Below, piece after piece: positions 181 to 9,341 of a stretch of DNA of 44,767 nt (its first letter is position 1; the number at the start of each line of letters is the position of its first letter). The stretch is from Oligoflexia bacterium (GTDB lineage: Bacteria; Bdellovibrionota; UBA1018; CAIMNF01): NCBI GenBank assembly GCA_903845155.1, contig CAIMWN010000259.1:1-44767 (forward strand). The letters run 5' to 3'. The notes below the pieces were generated by a model that worked only from the letters and a program-made list of their open reading frames with translations, was not told the origin of the DNA and did not search any database. A program made the translations under genes and the position numbers.

Positions 181-345
181 GTCTACCGAGTGTATTTAAT
201 TAATTCAATCCATTACTTGGTGGGCAGGGACATAATCGTGTGCGAATTAAAGAGACAGAATCGCGCGCGAATCACATCCGAATCCGCTCCATCGAAGTTT
301 CATTTGTGGACTTTTTTAGTCGGATACTGTAAACCATCAAAGAAC

Positions 346-2028
346 ATGTGCGATTTGAAAGCGAAAACAATTCAATTAGGCGTCTTGATGTGCTGTCTTC
401 TCGCGGCAACTTCAGTGGTGGCTAGTCCCGATTGCCCGCATATCATTAATCCTGATCACAGTACCTTCACTAAAATCCTCAAGGCCTCTTTGCACTATGA
501 CGATGCAAGCCTATTACCTAGTGCGGCTTATGCCGAAGTGGCGATGAAGAAATTGGATTTGGTCACAGAAGCTGAACGAGAAATTTTCACAAAAGCCATG
601 AAACTGAAACCACTCCTTGATTCAGAAATACTCCACGAAGCCATCTCATCTGAAGCATCGATGCGGGGATTTAAAGGAAAAGCGAGCGTCGAACGCCTAT
701 TTAACATCTTTAACGCTCTTCCGACTGATCAAAAAGAATCCCTCATCGATGGGGTGATTCAAAATATTCTTTTTATATTCGGTGAAAAAATTGATTTTAG
801 CAATATCGACCAAATTTCAAATTTAGCAAGCTCCTATAAAATGACAAAAGCGGACGTTTTCAGCGTCATTAAAAGTTTTGAAAACATGCCGGCTACTCAT
901 TTCGAAGAAGCGAAGCTCGTCATTCTTGATTTTTTTAGAAACCCAAGTCCAGCGCTATTGCAAAGGGTGGTAACACTACAAAAGTTTCTGAATCCCAACT
1001 ACCCACTCCTTGGCAGACCTCAATTCAGATTAGAGGCGGGCCGCGACGATCGTCTCCAAGATTTCAGTAAATACTTGGGTGCATCCAATACCCGGATAAA
1101 AATCTATTTTCTAGATCAAAACTGGGACCAACTGAGCACCGATCAACTCATGATGGTGGAGAAAGATAAAGCTTGGCCACTTTTTCCACTCAATATCAGG
1201 GAATCAATCAATGGTAAACTTTATCTAAAGAATTCGCTGGCGATAAAAGCACCAGAAACGCCCCCCTCGATGAGCGCCAAATCAAAAGAGTGTAGAGTCG
1301 TAGCCAAGCTATTTCATCAGGCAAACAGTACAGCTGATGCTAAAAAATACTTGAGACAAGCTTTTGAACTACTGGATACCCCCGCTGATTTCGTGAATCT
1401 TTTTAGCAATTCATATTCTAATTTGGATGTTTATTGGGTCAGGAATAAACTCATGCCTGTCTACTTACAGCATTTTTATTACCTAAAACCAAAACTAGAC
1501 GAGGTATTGGCCGTCCTTAAAATCTTTACCTCTGGCAATCAATCAGATGAAACATTTATCGACCTTCAGAAAAAAATATGCGCTGATGCTGATCAACACC
1601 GTATCATGCGTACTCCAGTTGACTACATTCAAGTACTCATGAGCGTCTCGCCTCGGGTCTTGGATGATTGCAGCCTTAAGCTGATCGATGGATTTATGCA
1701 TCTCTCTCCCACTAGCTCAGAGGTGAGGCAGGTCATCAATCAAGTGCCCTTTCATATTTATTCCCCTGCAAGAGGCGCATTTTTAGAGAGAGGCGCACTG
1801 CGTGCGAAAACCGTGGAAGAGTATCTCCATATTTTTGACGAATTCCCATCACAGTCACTCCCTTTTGACACCTTCCGAGTAAAAGCACTAAAATCAAGCC
1901 TCTTTCGTTTCCTTGCGCTTAATCCGTCAAGTATAGATGTCGAAGAACTCCAGGTACGGGCCAATCTTGGAAACAGCATCAATCGGTACATTTTAGTGCA
2001 ATATTTAAAAAGCAAAGGTGCGGAGTAA
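346..2028 (+). CDS. Exported alpha-helical repeat protein, first of two tandem paralogues
   Basis: Predicted 560-residue exported protein of unknown function. The frame is open from a GTG at 190, but the ATG at 346 is preferred because a typical signal peptide follows directly (basic start, hydrophobic LGVLMCCLLAATS, cleavage near VVAS). The mature part begins with PDCPHIINPD, which is mirrored as QDCLYIINPE in the next gene. The rest is helix-rich. The C-terminal half has loosely repeated units of about 65-75 residues of the form 'hFhxLxPtxxEVxxLI', for example FMHLSPTSSEVRQVI and FLALNPSSIDVEEL. Two bases separate its stop from the next gene, so the pair is surely co-transcribed. No enzyme motif was seen. 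A structural, scaffold or binding role is possible but not shown. Confidence 0.8.
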   Translation: MCDLKAKTIQLGVLMCCLLAATSVVASPDCPHIINPDHSTFTKILKASLHYDDASLLPSAAYAEVAMKKLDLVTEAEREIFTKAMKLKPLLDSEILHEAISSEASMRGFKGKASVERLFNIFNALPTDQKESLIDGVIQNILFIFGEKIDFSNIDQISNLASSYKMTKADVFSVIKSFENMPATHFEEAKLVILDFFRNPSPALLQRVVTLQKFLNPNYPLLGRPQFRLEAGRDDRLQDFSKYLGASNTRIKIYFLDQNWDQLSTDQLMMVEKDKAWPLFPLNIRESINGKLYLKNSLAIKAPETPPSMSAKSKECRVVAKLFHQANSTADAKKYLRQAFELLDTPADFVNLFSNSYSNLDVYWVRNKLMPVYLQHFYYLKPKLDEVLAVLKIFTSGNQSDETFIDLQKKICADADQHRIMRTPVDYIQVLMSVSPRVLDDCSLKLIDGFMHLSPTSSEVRQVINQVPFHIYSPARGAFLERGALRAKTVEEYLHIFDEFPSQSLPFDTFRVKALKSSLFRFLALNPSSIDVEELQVRANLGNSINRYILVQYLKSKGAE

Positions 2029-2030
2029 AA

Positions 2031-3737
2031 ATGAGGTGTATGAAAAACCTATTTTTACTATTTCTTTTACTAGGCATCTCTACAGCAAGAGCCGATGACC
2101 AAGATTGTTTGTATATCATCAACCCCGAATTAGTATTACGCAAAGCCCTAGATATGAGCGAAGTGAACCCGGGTGTGGGTTTTTTACCCAATCCTTCCTA
2201 TCTAGAAACAGCCATGAGTAACTTAGGTGTGAACTCCGAAGCCGAGCAGAAAATTTTCATGGCCGCCATGGAACTAAAACCAAAGCTTGATTCAGAACTG
2301 CTCTACGAAGCCATCGCCACCGAGGCCATGATGAGGGGTTTTAAAGGACAAGCAGGCATAGAGAAACTGATCACACACTTCACTTTTCTCGCATCCAAAG
2401 AAAAACGCTCGATGATAGATGGGGTACTCCAAAATATTCTTTTTAATCTCGGTGAGGGTGTCGATTTCAACAACCTAGATCAGACTAAAAAGCTGGCAAA
2501 AAAATACAAAATATCAGAAACTTACTTTTTAAGTTTGATCCAAAACCTTGAAGCCATGACCTCCAGTCATTTTGAGGAAGCGAAACTGGTCATCCTTGAT
2601 TTTTTACTTGCTCCAAGCCCTTTGCTTATTAAAAACATTAGCAGTTCACAAAAACAGTTTTCCGGCCTATTCAAAAAGCCACTACCTCCCCACTTCAAAT
2701 TGGAGTCCGATCACAACCTTCAAACATTCATGACGTATATCGAGAAATCGAATACTCGGATGAAAATTTATTTTATCACTCAGAACCTCGATCAGATGAG
2801 CACTGATCAGTTACTGATAGTAAAACGCGACCAATCATGGAGCGCTTTACCCGATCATTTAAAAAAGCAGATTGAAGACAAAATTAATCTCGGTTCGCCG
2901 TCATCTCAGGAATTGGCATCCCGGAAATTATTAATACAGGAGAGTGCAATAAGAGGTTTCAAAACGCTGAAGGCTCTAACAGATGCACTCCATAGTGCAC
3001 AAGATGAAAGCAAGGCGCAATCATTACTTGAATATGGCGTTGAGATGATCCGAACACAAGAAGACTTCATTGAAGTGTTTCGTACCGCCCGGAATGGAAA
3101 CACAACGTTGACTTCCGCTCGAGTCAAGGCACGTAATCTACCCCTTTATTTAGATCATTTTTTCCAGTTCAAGCCGAGAATCAGTGCGGTAAATACACTC
3201 CTTAAAAACGCGACCACCTACGATGCTCACTCACACATAGATCATGGTGCGACTGAAAAAATTTACCTTCGTGCGGCCGCTCAAACTGAATACCCTGCTG
3301 AGTATAACGAGTTGTTTACTTCATTATATAATACCCATGAAGATGGGGTATATAGACAGATCCTCGGGAAGAGCTGCGTGGCGACGCTTGATCATTATTT
3401 CTCCTTGAACCCCACTGGCTCAGATGTGAGAGCCCTCATCAACAATGGATGGTTTAATGATCACAGTCGTGCCGATGAAGAAATCTTAACAAAAGCGGCA
3501 TTGGGTGCAAAATCAATAGGTGACTACCTTCTCATACTCGATGAGTTTTCGAGAAGGACCGAATCCTTTCAGGTGGCCAGAAGATTAGCATTGAAGTTAA
3601 GCTTGAAGCATTTTTTTGAGTTGGGACCCACATTGATCGAAGTAGATGAATTGATCGCACGGACCAATTTTTCTAAAGAACTCAATAGTTTTATTCTGAA
3701 AAAATATGAATCGCTGAAAACTCAGGGATCAAAATGA
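2031..3737 (+). CDS. Exported alpha-helical repeat protein, second tandem paralogue
   Basis: 568 residues, paralogous along its length to the preceding product. Shared blocks include the N-terminal INPE segment, a stretch around YEAIATEAMMRGFKG, HFEEAKLVILDF and NLDQMSTDQLLIVKRD. The signal peptide is MRCMKNLFLLFLLLGISTARA. A GGAG at 2022-2025 overlaps the upstream stop codon and lies 5 bases before the ATG at 2031, which supports this start and translational coupling. An ATG at 2040 is the alternative. The C-terminal half again carries helical units such as YFSLNPTGSDVRALI and FFELGPTLIEVDELI. The N-terminal halves of the two copies are better conserved than the middles, which suggests an old duplication under different constraints. 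Function unknown. Confidence 0.82.
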   Translation: MRCMKNLFLLFLLLGISTARADDQDCLYIINPELVLRKALDMSEVNPGVGFLPNPSYLETAMSNLGVNSEAEQKIFMAAMELKPKLDSELLYEAIATEAMMRGFKGQAGIEKLITHFTFLASKEKRSMIDGVLQNILFNLGEGVDFNNLDQTKKLAKKYKISETYFLSLIQNLEAMTSSHFEEAKLVILDFLLAPSPLLIKNISSSQKQFSGLFKKPLPPHFKLESDHNLQTFMTYIEKSNTRMKIYFITQNLDQMSTDQLLIVKRDQSWSALPDHLKKQIEDKINLGSPSSQELASRKLLIQESAIRGFKTLKALTDALHSAQDESKAQSLLEYGVEMIRTQEDFIEVFRTARNGNTTLTSARVKARNLPLYLDHFFQFKPRISAVNTLLKNATTYDAHSHIDHGATEKIYLRAAAQTEYPAEYNELFTSLYNTHEDGVYRQILGKSCVATLDHYFSLNPTGSDVRALINNGWFNDHSRADEEILTKAALGAKSIGDYLLILDEFSRRTESFQVARRLALKLSLKHFFELGPTLIEVDELIARTNFSKELNSFILKKYESLKTQGSK

Positions 3738-4297: not shown

Positions 4298-5635
4298 CTA
4301 CTCAACCTGTCCGATCCAGCATTTCAAATAATGGCCTTCTTTAAACTCAAACCGCGCATAATGATCGAGCCCCGGCGACCCTTGAGCAAGCCAGCGCACG
4401 CCTTTGCCCGACTTCCGAGTGGCCTTGGTGAGCACATCCTCGAACTCTTCATCCGAAAGAAGCTGCGAACAAGAACAACACACCACGAGGCCATTTTTAG
4501 CAGTTTTCTGTATCGCCGTGGTCATCAAATTTACATAAGCGTGTTTTCCTTGAGGCATGCTTTTCCTGTTTTTCATAAAAGCAGGAGGATCAGCAATCAC
4601 GATATCGTAATGGTTGGCATCGAGAGCATTCATGGGCTCTAAAACGTCGGCCTTCAATTTGTTGAATTCCGTCTTCACTTTTACCGCTTGAACTTTCAGC
4701 AGGTGTTGAAAGTTTGTCTCTGCGAGCGCAAGTGCTGGGTCCGAAGCATCAACACAAGTAACCTCGAGTTTTCGGCCTGCACACTTCTCGTTCTTCAGAA
4801 AAGCATGCGCGAGATGAACCGTCCACTGACCAATGTAGGAACAAAGGTCGAGGATTTTATAGTCTTGGGCCGGGGAGTGCGCCACTTTCTTTTGAAATAA
4901 ACGAATGGTGGTTTCAATATTTTGAAGTTGATCAAAGAAAAAACCGGTCTTTTGTCCACCAATCAAATCGGCTTTCAGTTCCACTCCACCCGGAACTTGC
5001 AACCAGAATTGCTTGAACAGATCGAGGGGTAATTCGCTTTTTTGAGTTCCCGAAAGCTCACGCGCAGCTGGCGGCAACTTCTCGAGCCCCTCACGTTCGC
5101 GCGACGATGCATCACGCCTCAAAATCACGCGAGCAGCAAGGCCTTGGTCGAACTCGCGTGTCAGTACTTCAAGTGCTTGAAGTATGATCTCAAGATTGAC
5201 GTCCATTCCAAAAGAATGGGGTTGGACGACATAAACCACGCAAGATTCCGCTTGGGCATCTTTTCCAAAGAACCGATCAATCACCAAGCCCGGTAAGCCA
5301 TCAATTTCACCGTAAACCAGTCTGAAGCTTTCTCTCCGATCAAACCACTGAAGCCTAAATTGCATCGCAGTGTTGATTTTCTTTGAGAAAAAAGCGGGGG
5401 TTAAAATCTCATCATCAGTTTTAATTCTGCTCAAGGTGCGGAACGCAATCAGTGAATGCGAATTTCCAAAACCATAAGCAAGGAATTCACCGCCTGCATC
5501 GTGAAGTTCTATCACTTCCCCAGGACTCACTCCTTTAGGCGACTCCTGAAGCTCATTCGAGTAAACCCACGGATGCCCTTGCTTAAATCGGCGTTCTTCT
5601 TTGCTTTTCAAACGCCAAGTTTTATATTTTCTCAT
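4298..5635 (-). CDS. rlmI: RlmI-like 23S rRNA (cytosine) methyltransferase
   Basis: 445-residue class I SAM-dependent methyltransferase of the RlmI/RlmCD-like group, expected to make m5C in 23S rRNA (C1962 in E. coli). A PUA-type RNA-binding domain occupies about residues 1-75 (KEERRFKQGHPWVYSNEL). It is followed by the EEHEA-like region and a Rossmann methyltransferase with GGQKTGFFFDQ (226-236), the SAM motif ILDLCSYIGQW (261-271), IADPPAF (347-353) and CCSCS (386-390), where the catalytic cysteines of this family sit. The length is somewhat above the usual 390-400, through extra segments around 170-200. The ATG at 5635 has a GAGAAAG-like ribosome site upstream. It is probably transcribed with the membrane protein and aminopeptidase genes upstream. 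Confidence 0.88.
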   Translation of the reverse strand: MRKYKTWRLKSKEERRFKQGHPWVYSNELQESPKGVSPGEVIELHDAGGEFLAYGFGNSHSLIAFRTLSRIKTDDEILTPAFFSKKINTAMQFRLQWFDRRESFRLVYGEIDGLPGLVIDRFFGKDAQAESCVVYVVQPHSFGMDVNLEIILQALEVLTREFDQGLAARVILRRDASSREREGLEKLPPAARELSGTQKSELPLDLFKQFWLQVPGGVELKADLIGGQKTGFFFDQLQNIETTIRLFQKKVAHSPAQDYKILDLCSYIGQWTVHLAHAFLKNEKCAGRKLEVTCVDASDPALALAETNFQHLLKVQAVKVKTEFNKLKADVLEPMNALDANHYDIVIADPPAFMKNRKSMPQGKHAYVNLMTTAIQKTAKNGLVVCCSCSQLLSDEEFEDVLTKATRKSGKGVRWLAQGSPGLDHYARFEFKEGHYLKCWIGQVE

Positions 5636-5682: not shown

Positions 5683-5955
5683 TTAAGATGATCTTCTTTG
5701 AAGAGGCCCTGAAACAATTTTAAAAATAGAACGGCCAAAAAACAGAGCCACAATCATGAGTACAAAAAAACCAACCAACAAAATGGGAATAGCGAGTGGC
5801 AATAACAAAAGCGCCAGTGGGCCACCTTTAATGACTCGAAAATTTCCCATCATGCGTGGATTTCCGCTGTCGCGATCCAGAGTATGATCAGATTCTTTAA
5901 TGACTTGGCCTTTTGCATCGAGCACTTCAACTTGATCTACGGTGATCTTCTTCAT
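5683..5955 (-). CDS. Small membrane protein of unknown function
   Basis: 90 residues. The N-terminal 45 are soluble and charged (MKKITVDQVEVLDAKGQVI). They are followed by a long hydrophobic stretch at about 46-75 (PLALLLLPLAIPILLVGFF and onwards) that can form one or two membrane segments, and a short basic tail. The start codon overlaps the aminopeptidase stop by 4 bases (5952-5955), a classic coupled junction, so this is a genuine gene of the operon. No family was recognised. Confidence 0.72.
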   Translation of the reverse strand: MKKITVDQVEVLDAKGQVIKESDHTLDRDSGNPRMMGNFRVIKGGPLALLLLPLAIPILLVGFFVLMIVALFFGRSIFKIVSGPLQRRSS

Positions 5956-7838
5956 GCTTGAGCCTCCAGAGGGCAGGACACGAGCTCAGTCCCTAGTTCA
6001 CGACATTTTGCTTCGTATGCTTTCAAATAGACTTTCTCTTCGTTTGTTAATTTATCGAGATCGATCAGATCCCAATCGTAACCAACAAATGCCACGTTTT
6101 CATAACGATAGTGCGAGCTTCCTTCAGGAATGAGCAACGCCACGTTTTCAACACGCACCCCACCCTTGCCTTGCAAATAGATTCCAGGCTCTACGCTCAC
6201 ACATGCATAAGGAGATTGCGGGTAAATTGAGAGTGTGGATAAGCGAATCCCCTCCTCATGAACATGAATTCCGATTCCATGCCCAGTTCCATGCATGTAA
6301 TCGTAACCGGCTGCTTTCACTTTTCCACGAATGAGCGCATCGACTTCTTTTCCGGTCAATTTCGCATCTACGGGATGAATAAATACTTCAATCGCACTTT
6401 TTAAGGTCGCGGTGTAAATATCTTTTTGCCATGCTTCGGGCTTTACCCCTGAATTGCCACCGCCCACAAAAAACCCGCGCGTGCAATCCGTGCAAAATCC
6501 TTCTGAATAATAAGCACCACTATCGAGTAGCGCGATCATGCCCTTTTCAAAATAGGAAGTGGCTTGAGGATTACTGTAATGAACGATGGCGCTGTGAGGA
6601 CCCGCACCCGAAATGGTTTTGAAAGAAAGTGCTACTGCTCCCTCATCCGCGTAACACTGATACAAATAATTTGCTAAATCGATTTCAGAAAAACTTTGCT
6701 TTTGACTTTCTGATTTTCCATAGCGAAGTGTTTTCGCAATCGCGCGAGAACTGCGTAAAAACGAAGTGCGAATGGAATTCATTTCGGCGGGGGTCTTTTG
6801 AGCACGAGTTCTTAATAACCATTGATATTGATCGTCAACAGTCGCATTGGGAAATACTTCCATGACGATTGAAGGGAGTAAGCCATTCATGCGACTTCCA
6901 TCAAAAAAGATCTGATCCACCGAGTATTCTTTGAGTGCGGCCTTGAGTGCTGGAATATCGTCGCGAATCACGGTCAATTTAAATTCACCCATATTGCCTT
7001 CATCTATTTGCATGGGTGCATTTTTAGAAGAAGCGGGTAAAAACACGATGAGTTCCTGATCAACAAAAAATGTGTAGGCTAAAAAAGATGCGGTATGAGG
7101 CAAATGGAAGCCTCTTGCGTTCAGTAAAAATGCGGCATCATCGGTGGCACAAGTGAGGTACAAAGTACCCGCGTTCGCTGGGTACCGGCGAGCATGCATA
7201 TCTAGGGTGAGCGTGCGCAGCAGTCCCTTGGTGGAACGTCCGGTCGCAGACTCTGGTACTGAAAATATAGGCCGGTCGATCTTCCAACCCGGCAATGAAA
7301 GCACAGTCAGGATCTTTTCACCTTCGATACTCACAAGCGTGTTTTTCTTTTCGGAAGCACGCGTTCGATATTTGATTAGGGTCGCGATCGAGGTTCGTTC
7401 AAAATCCAGGCCCACTTTAATTCCATTGAAGCCCGAAAGGCGATCAATCACACTTCCCTCGATATTGGGCTCGACATCCAACTTCACCACTTCCACCAAA
7501 TTGAGATCTGTTTCTTGATCTGCCTGTAAGTGATAACGACCATCTACAAATAGGGAAACCGGTTTCAAGTTTGGATTGAACTTTCTGAATTTCTTAGTCC
7601 AATAAATACAGTCGCCCACTGATCCGGTAAAACGAGTAGCGCCGTAGCGCGGGTTATTATCGACAGGCACATATTCAGACATGAAGGGATCTTTGGAGGT
7701 CAGGACAATGGCGTCGAGATCTGGATACGCTTGGTCGAGCCTTTCTAAAGATTTTTCGAGATCTGAAGATGGTTGAGCTGGTGCTTGTGAGGGCTCGGTT
7801 TTAGCTGATTTTGGTTCAAAGTCATATTTCATGAGCAT
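5952..7838 (-). CDS. Xaa-Pro aminopeptidase (M24B family)
   Basis: 628-residue cytosolic dinuclear metallopeptidase that removes an N-terminal residue preceding proline. It has the long, three-domain aminopeptidase P1 layout: two creatinase-like N-terminal domains (about 30-185 and 190-345), then the pita-bread catalytic domain (about 350-570) and a short C-terminal extension. The five metal ligands of the family can be placed: Asp439 (LLDSGAYY), Asp451 (CTDCTRG), His520 (HGTGHGIG), Glu550 (SVEPGIY) and Glu564 (VRVENVA). The start could be 7838 or the ATG at 7832. It is the first gene of a right-to-left operon and is divergent from the NFACT gene, with about 40 bases between starts. Confidence 0.92.
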   Translation of the reverse strand: MLMKYDFEPKSAKTEPSQAPAQPSSDLEKSLERLDQAYPDLDAIVLTSKDPFMSEYVPVDNNPRYGATRFTGSVGDCIYWTKKFRKFNPNLKPVSLFVDGRYHLQADQETDLNLVEVVKLDVEPNIEGSVIDRLSGFNGIKVGLDFERTSIATLIKYRTRASEKKNTLVSIEGEKILTVLSLPGWKIDRPIFSVPESATGRSTKGLLRTLTLDMHARRYPANAGTLYLTCATDDAAFLLNARGFHLPHTASFLAYTFFVDQELIVFLPASSKNAPMQIDEGNMGEFKLTVIRDDIPALKAALKEYSVDQIFFDGSRMNGLLPSIVMEVFPNATVDDQYQWLLRTRAQKTPAEMNSIRTSFLRSSRAIAKTLRYGKSESQKQSFSEIDLANYLYQCYADEGAVALSFKTISGAGPHSAIVHYSNPQATSYFEKGMIALLDSGAYYSEGFCTDCTRGFFVGGGNSGVKPEAWQKDIYTATLKSAIEVFIHPVDAKLTGKEVDALIRGKVKAAGYDYMHGTGHGIGIHVHEEGIRLSTLSIYPQSPYACVSVEPGIYLQGKGGVRVENVALLIPEGSSHYRYENVAFVGYDWDLIDLDKLTNEEKVYLKAYEAKCRELGTELVSCPLEAQA

Positions 7839-7880: not shown

Positions 7881-8204
7881 ATGATTCTATTTTCAATGCT
7901 ACCCTACCCCATCCTCAGTTTTAAAGAACTTGAGCACTATATTGAGCTCATCGCGCCCTTACTCAAGGAAGCTCGGGTAGACCGCGTCTTTGTGCCTGAA
8001 ACCGCAGCGCATCCCGACCACTACTTTAAGAAGGAATGGATCCTCGATCTCTCCTCACCCACGCAGGCATTTCAACTTTACTTCAGTGTTCGTCATGAGC
8101 AATGCGGACTGGTGTTGCTACCGACTCGGTTGAAAAAACCCCATTCCAAAGCAACTCGGTCTGGCTTCGATTTGAGTCTCAACAAAAACATTTCGGGGCA
8201 ATAA
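7881..8204 (+). pseudogene. NFACT-domain protein, N-terminal piece ending at an in-frame TAA
   Basis: 107 residues if started at the ATG at 7881; a GTG at 7860 and an ATG at 7896 are alternatives. It matches the beginning of NFACT-N (fibronectin-binding A N-terminal / RqcH-like) proteins: LSFKELEHYIELIAPLL, DRVFVPET, then a segment ending KATRSGFDLSLNKNISG, which corresponds to the family's 'sPFdlaL.khL.Ga'. Translation then meets TAA at 8202-8204. The same frame continues without any shift into the next segment (ILGIQTIKNERALQIKF), exactly as the family would. I therefore read 7881-9341 as one ancestral gene carrying a single nonsense codon, not two independent genes. A sequencing error is an alternative explanation. 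Confidence 0.7.
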
Positions 8205-8207
8205 ATC

Positions 8208-9341
8208 TTGGGAATTCAAACCATAAAAAATGAACGCGCCCTTCAAATTAAGTTTTCCCAATTCACATTGGTTTTTGTTTTTATCCCTCATCAGCCCGAG
8301 GTAGTACTCCTCGAGGGGGATACGGTACTTGCATCCACCAAGAATGAAAGTAACTTCACTTTTCCTACTGGAAGAACTGTGACGGAAGACCTTTTGAAAA
8401 AAATACCGTTTCGAAAGGAATGGATTCAATCGATCGCCACCTACGCCACTCTTTGGATGCGGGCTCAAGACGAACAGGCGCTTGGCCTTAGGAAACAGGC
8501 CATTGCGAAACACTTAGAGCATCAACGAAAGTCTTTTCAGAAAAAAATCAAATCGCTCCGGGCGGAAAGTGAACAAAATGAGTTGGAGCCTGACTGGAAT
8601 TATTACGGTTCGCTCTTGCAAATTCATTTTCATTCTCAACCAAAAGCGATTAAAGACGAAGGACACTTTTATTACGAGCTCATGGATTTCGAAAAGGACG
8701 AAAAGATACTGGTTCCCGTTGATTCTAAGTTAAACTTGAAACAACAGCTCGAGCGTTACTTTCATTTAGCAAAACGAAATAAGACAAGAACGTTTGAAAC
8801 CAGCACCAGGATTGCTGCACTCGAGGAGAAACTCACCCACACACTCAAAGCGCAAACACGCCTCACCGAAGCCACTGAAATCAGCGCCCTCCTCGCTCTC
8901 GAAAAAGAACTCAGACTGGTGGAGCAATCGTTTTCTCACTCCATCAAGGAACAAAAAAAATTAGTTCACTTCTCTGGCAAGCAATATCAGTCAGAAGAGG
9001 GCCTCACCATTTTGTCGGGGAAAAATTTGAATGAAAATTTAGAACTCACTTTTAAAATTGCAAAAGGTAACGACATTTGGCTTCATGTAAAGGGCCGCCC
9101 GGGATCACATACCATCATCCTTTTACCACCCGGCAAAAGCGCCTCACTTGAAACCCTACTCGATGCCGCACACGCATGCATTTTACATAGCGGAGGCAAA
9201 GACTGGGGAAAAACGGAGGTCGATTACACCTTTAGAAAACATGTGAAAAAGGTGAAAAACCAAACCGAAGTCATCTACACCCACAATAAAACACTCATGG
9301 TAACGCTTGACCCTGCTCGGATGAAACGGCTCTTCCAATAG
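8208..9341 (+). CDS. NFACT-domain protein, C-terminal piece (rest of NFACT-N, coiled coil, NFACT-R)
   Basis: 377 residues in the same frame as the preceding piece, opening with a TTG two bases after... strictly three bases beyond the TAA (stop 8202-8204, TTG 8208-8210). It contains the remainder of NFACT-N, a charged helical coiled-coil region (about 85-260, e.g. KQAIAKHLEHQRKSFQKK), and a C-terminal NFACT-R/DUF814 domain with KGNDIWLHVKGRPGSH and a late RKHVKKVKNQ segment. NFACT proteins bind tRNA and the large ribosomal subunit; RqcH members drive alanine tailing of stalled chains. If the TAA is real, this part could be made only by reinitiation (a GGGG at 8195-8198 lies upstream of the TTG) or by readthrough. 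Otherwise the gene is dead. The NFACT-R end shows no further damage, so inactivation, if any, is recent. Confidence 0.75.
   Translation: MGIQTIKNERALQIKFSQFTLVFVFIPHQPEVVLLEGDTVLASTKNESNFTFPTGRTVTEDLLKKIPFRKEWIQSIATYATLWMRAQDEQALGLRKQAIAKHLEHQRKSFQKKIKSLRAESEQNELEPDWNYYGSLLQIHFHSQPKAIKDEGHFYYELMDFEKDEKILVPVDSKLNLKQQLERYFHLAKRNKTRTFETSTRIAALEEKLTHTLKAQTRLTEATEISALLALEKELRLVEQSFSHSIKEQKKLVHFSGKQYQSEEGLTILSGKNLNENLELTFKIAKGNDIWLHVKGRPGSHTIILLPPGKSASLETLLDAAHACILHSGGKDWGKTEVDYTFRKHVKKVKNQTEVIYTHNKTLMVTLDPARMKRLFQ

Follow-up and report, generated by a model that had tools for sequence, protein, structure and literature searches.

The NFACT gene and its orthologues

The window (the whole stretch of DNA analysed, 44,767 nucleotides of contig CAIMWN010000259.1 in assembly GCA_903845155.1, a metagenome-assembled genome, or MAG, of an Oligoflexia bacterium) contains a gene of the NFACT family on its forward strand. 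The gene runs in one frame from an ATG at 7881 to a TAG at 9339-9341, and its sole interruption is a TAA at codon 108 (Table 1). The parts upstream and downstream of this stop share the frame, and the TAA is followed by ATC (8205-8207), by a TTG, and then by codons that remain open up to the terminal TAG. The downstream part matches the Pfam models NFACT_N (PF05833, profile 295-440, E = 6e-9) and NFACT-R_1 (PF05670, E = 4.9e-9, 37.1 bits against a curated cut-off of 29.8). The 107 amino acids upstream reach no Pfam model when taken alone; they align over their full length to the same orthologues as the downstream part. Elsewhere in the window, two adjoining genes on the forward strand (190-3737, coding for 612 and 568 amino acids) look like tandem paralogues.

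Table 1. Features at and around the interrupted gene (positions in the window)
Feature	Position	Strand	Basis or remark
Divergent neighbour, Xaa-Pro aminopeptidase-like	5952..7838	-	Name by inspection of the translation; adjoins the NFACT gene in relatives too
First 107 codons of the RqcH-like gene, coding for the N-terminal half of the NFACT-N fold	7881..8201	+	Alignment to 29 orthologues
Premature in-frame TAA, codon 108	8202..8204	+	K/R in 29/29 aligned orthologues
Remainder: the other half of NFACT-N, carrying E118-R119 (DR motif in RqcH), then the coiled coil, NFACT-R, and TAG	8205..9341	+	
TTG, possible restart codon after the TAA, unconserved	8208..8210	+	Aligned residue varies in relatives

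Orthologues were sought in 40 genomes, among them MAGs of Bdellovibrionales, Bdellovibrio, and Oligoflexia and the window's own genome, for which the part after the stop served as the query. The NFACT gene was found in 38 of them, the window's own counted. It went undetected in two of the 39 other genomes, one of these two being only 72% complete. The homologues of the 37 related genomes are all open frames, with a stop inside none of them, and the column of the TAA is occupied by Lys or Arg in every one of the 29 full-length orthologues of the alignment. Because homology runs without a gap through the stop and this column is so uniform, the break is not a matter of chance. The succession of RlmI-like, PepP-like, NFACT, CCA transferase, and FtsK genes (names given by inspection) recurs in G010, L032, and L033, and since gene order is kept around them the NFACT genes of the relatives are regarded as orthologues.

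A second NFACT copy bearing a sense codon was sought in the window's genome and none was found. The locus shows three traits expected of a nonsense pseudogene: intact orthologues, a single genomic copy, and a stop specific to the lineage. The initial annotation had described a single in-frame TAA splitting an NFACT-domain gene, and reading frame, Pfam matches, and orthologue alignment all agree with that description. It had also proposed a comparison with related genomes, in which two separate, conserved genes would have spoken against a split gene. The interrupting stop is absent from all relatives, and each of them has one open frame.

Position in the fold and conservation of the protein

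A structure model was built from the orthologue alignment, the stop being read through for folding only (pLDDT 92.6). In this model codon 108 is the first residue of a strand (108-114) inside the NFACT-N fold, behind the helix formed by residues 95-104. The NFACT-N domain, which stands ahead of the coiled coil, is recognized both by the orthologue profile and by its fold, and is here cut by the TAA. Two fragments separated at this position would each carry half a domain in the model and are unlikely to function as fragments. Comparisons of sequence and of fold both led to RqcH, Rqc2/NEMF, and the streptococcal NFACT proteins as relatives of solved structure. RqcH requires its DR motif (D97-R98) for tRNA-Ala specificity (PMC8373112). 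The aligned counterpart of R98 of Bacillus subtilis RqcH is an Arg that sits 11 residues downstream of the stop and is invariant in all 30 sequences; its acidic partner (D97 in RqcH) is D or E in most relatives.

Near-invariant residues, defined as those conserved in at least 93% of the other aligned sequences, are retained at 67 of 69 positions of the interrupted protein, including eight of the eight that precede the stop. The end branch of this protein measures 0.58, against 0.66 in its nearest neighbour, the sister. Identities to the four closest relatives before and after the stop are 49% and 52% (L002), 42% and 53%, 50% and 51%, and 44% and 52%; the upstream part is thus similar to, or slightly below, the downstream one. 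The downstream part had been thought intact, and it is indeed free of any other lesion. Since there is no decay, either the gene has not passed a long spell without selection or the stop is absent from the organism. Preserved sequence is, however, equally expected of a product translated by readthrough.

Origin of the stop

There is little doubt that the RqcH-like gene, present in one copy, owes its TAA at codon 108 to a single base change, and that this change is either a very young allele or an error of the assembly consensus, and not a programmed signal. A real recent change and a consensus error are held to be about equally likely.

The case for a consensus error, in which the organism carries an intact gene and the TAA results from a single false base in the metagenome contig, comes close to an even chance. 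The absence of any trace of decay and the fragmentation of the assembly (337 contigs) are in its favour, and so is the kind of lesion seen in the rest of the MAG. A comparison of 96 of its genes (34,769 aligned codons of G000) with their orthologues in G010 revealed two further internal stops of the substitution type and no frameshift, which is the profile expected of wrong short-read bases. The first, in L103 (G000:C9), is a TAA that falls on codon 22 of a gene for a zinc alcohol dehydrogenase (minus strand, 8338-7298), a gene open in relatives. The second, in L148 (G000:C52), is a TGA at 5473, shortly before the end of a gene for an EI24/CysZ-like membrane protein (name by inspection), and homology carries on past it. 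These stops, of differing kind and in otherwise undamaged sequences, fit scattered single-base changes, be they errors of the consensus or mutations of recent date; they do not fit a recoded codon. The reverse comparison, on 99 genes of the sister genome G010, gave no clear internal stop. The excess is small (three against zero, including the case under study) and too few stops are involved for a firm claim. Against a consensus error, the 17 other comparable genes of the window carry no lesion.

Some other candidates were discarded. The two apparent stops of a fliR-like gene (L113) are an artefact of a query start placed too far upstream, and the stops of L106 and L139 sit at C-terminal ends. 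A scan for split genes by coding score listed chiefly ordinary neighbours in the same frame, and the low codon score of the N-terminal part makes it blind to the present case. A search with ABC domains was uninformative, stops being absent among the matches listed, and a search of the literature on nonsense codons in MAGs returned nothing of use. The G000 MAG spans 4.29 Mb, which is clearly more than its genus mates (2.1-3.4 Mb), and N masking covers a number of its small contigs.

A real nonsense allele by which the RqcH-like protein is inactivated, and which may be fixed or segregating in the population, is tentatively placed second, as a possibility of comparable weight. The change would then be very young, that is, a recent null allele or a strain polymorphism. 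The existence of a backup rescue by tmRNA and SmpB, with which the loss may be tolerated, speaks for such an allele, as does the failure to detect the gene in two other genomes, the incomplete one among them. However, almost every relative has the gene as an open frame, so that it is normally kept by selection, and a second lesion is absent.

Programmed readthrough of the TAA, or a stop followed by restart at TTG 8208, would allow a working product despite the stop, either whole or as two parts, and the full conservation of both halves and the start-like TTG one codon beyond the stop accord with this; it is nevertheless very improbable, as none of the 29 orthologues has a stop or a start at that place, the break cuts the modelled NFACT-N fold, the RNA surrounding the stop is no more stably folded than shuffled sequences (z = 1.27) and has no Rfam match, TAA is the stop codon that this genome uses most (it closes 186 of the 372 coding frames sampled), and the other in-frame stops differ in kind, so that no single recoded codon accounts for all of them. 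A search for a suppressor tRNA, made in that portion of the genome which was sampled, showed none. That an RqcH-like protein is still made and working, through readthrough or as two fragments restarted at TTG 8208, is hardly credible. Among the causes listed in the initial annotation, a single substitution in an otherwise whole gene stands, whereas programmed readthrough and reinitiation at this TTG are unsupported.

Consequences and comparison with RqcH

If the stop is real, translation would end after 107 residues, ahead of the tRNA-contacting Arg, and RqcH-like function would presumably be lost. Trans-translation is described as a conserved feature of more than 97% of bacterial genomes, RQC being a further rescue route (PMC11633108). 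Both tmRNA and SmpB are present in this genome, and because trans-translation is thereby retained the loss of RQC could be tolerated. A real stop would mean that a cell retaining trans-translation has naturally lost its RqcH-like factor. Caution is also in order with automated annotation, as gene calling on this MAG would give two genes or a truncated one and overlook that genomes of this order regularly encode RqcH-like NFACT proteins.

A premature stop arising by a single-base change is ordinary. The locus shares with ordinary nonsense pseudogenes and with consensus errors of MAGs the one in-frame stop, the intact remainder, and the intact relatives, and no difference from them was found. 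The protein itself is best compared with RqcH of B. subtilis, the bacterial homologue of Rqc2/NEMF (PDB 7AQC/7AS8), with which its NFACT-N region, coiled coil, and NFACT-R align. RqcH has an HhH domain (residues about 168-273) between NFACT-N and the coiled coil, whereas the proteins of this order appear to be without it: the match to Pfam NFACT_N falls into two segments, 31-171 and 276-454, and skips what lies between (for example in G020), and the structure model leaves no room for such a domain. Because of this apparent absence the protein is called an RqcH-like NFACT protein and not RqcH. The apparent lack of the HhH domain in this protein and the orthologues L002-L036, together with the invariant tRNA-contacting Arg, may be worth closer study than the stop itself. 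The protein of the window differs further from RqcH in having E in place of D97 in the DR motif and in being encoded by a gene with a premature stop.
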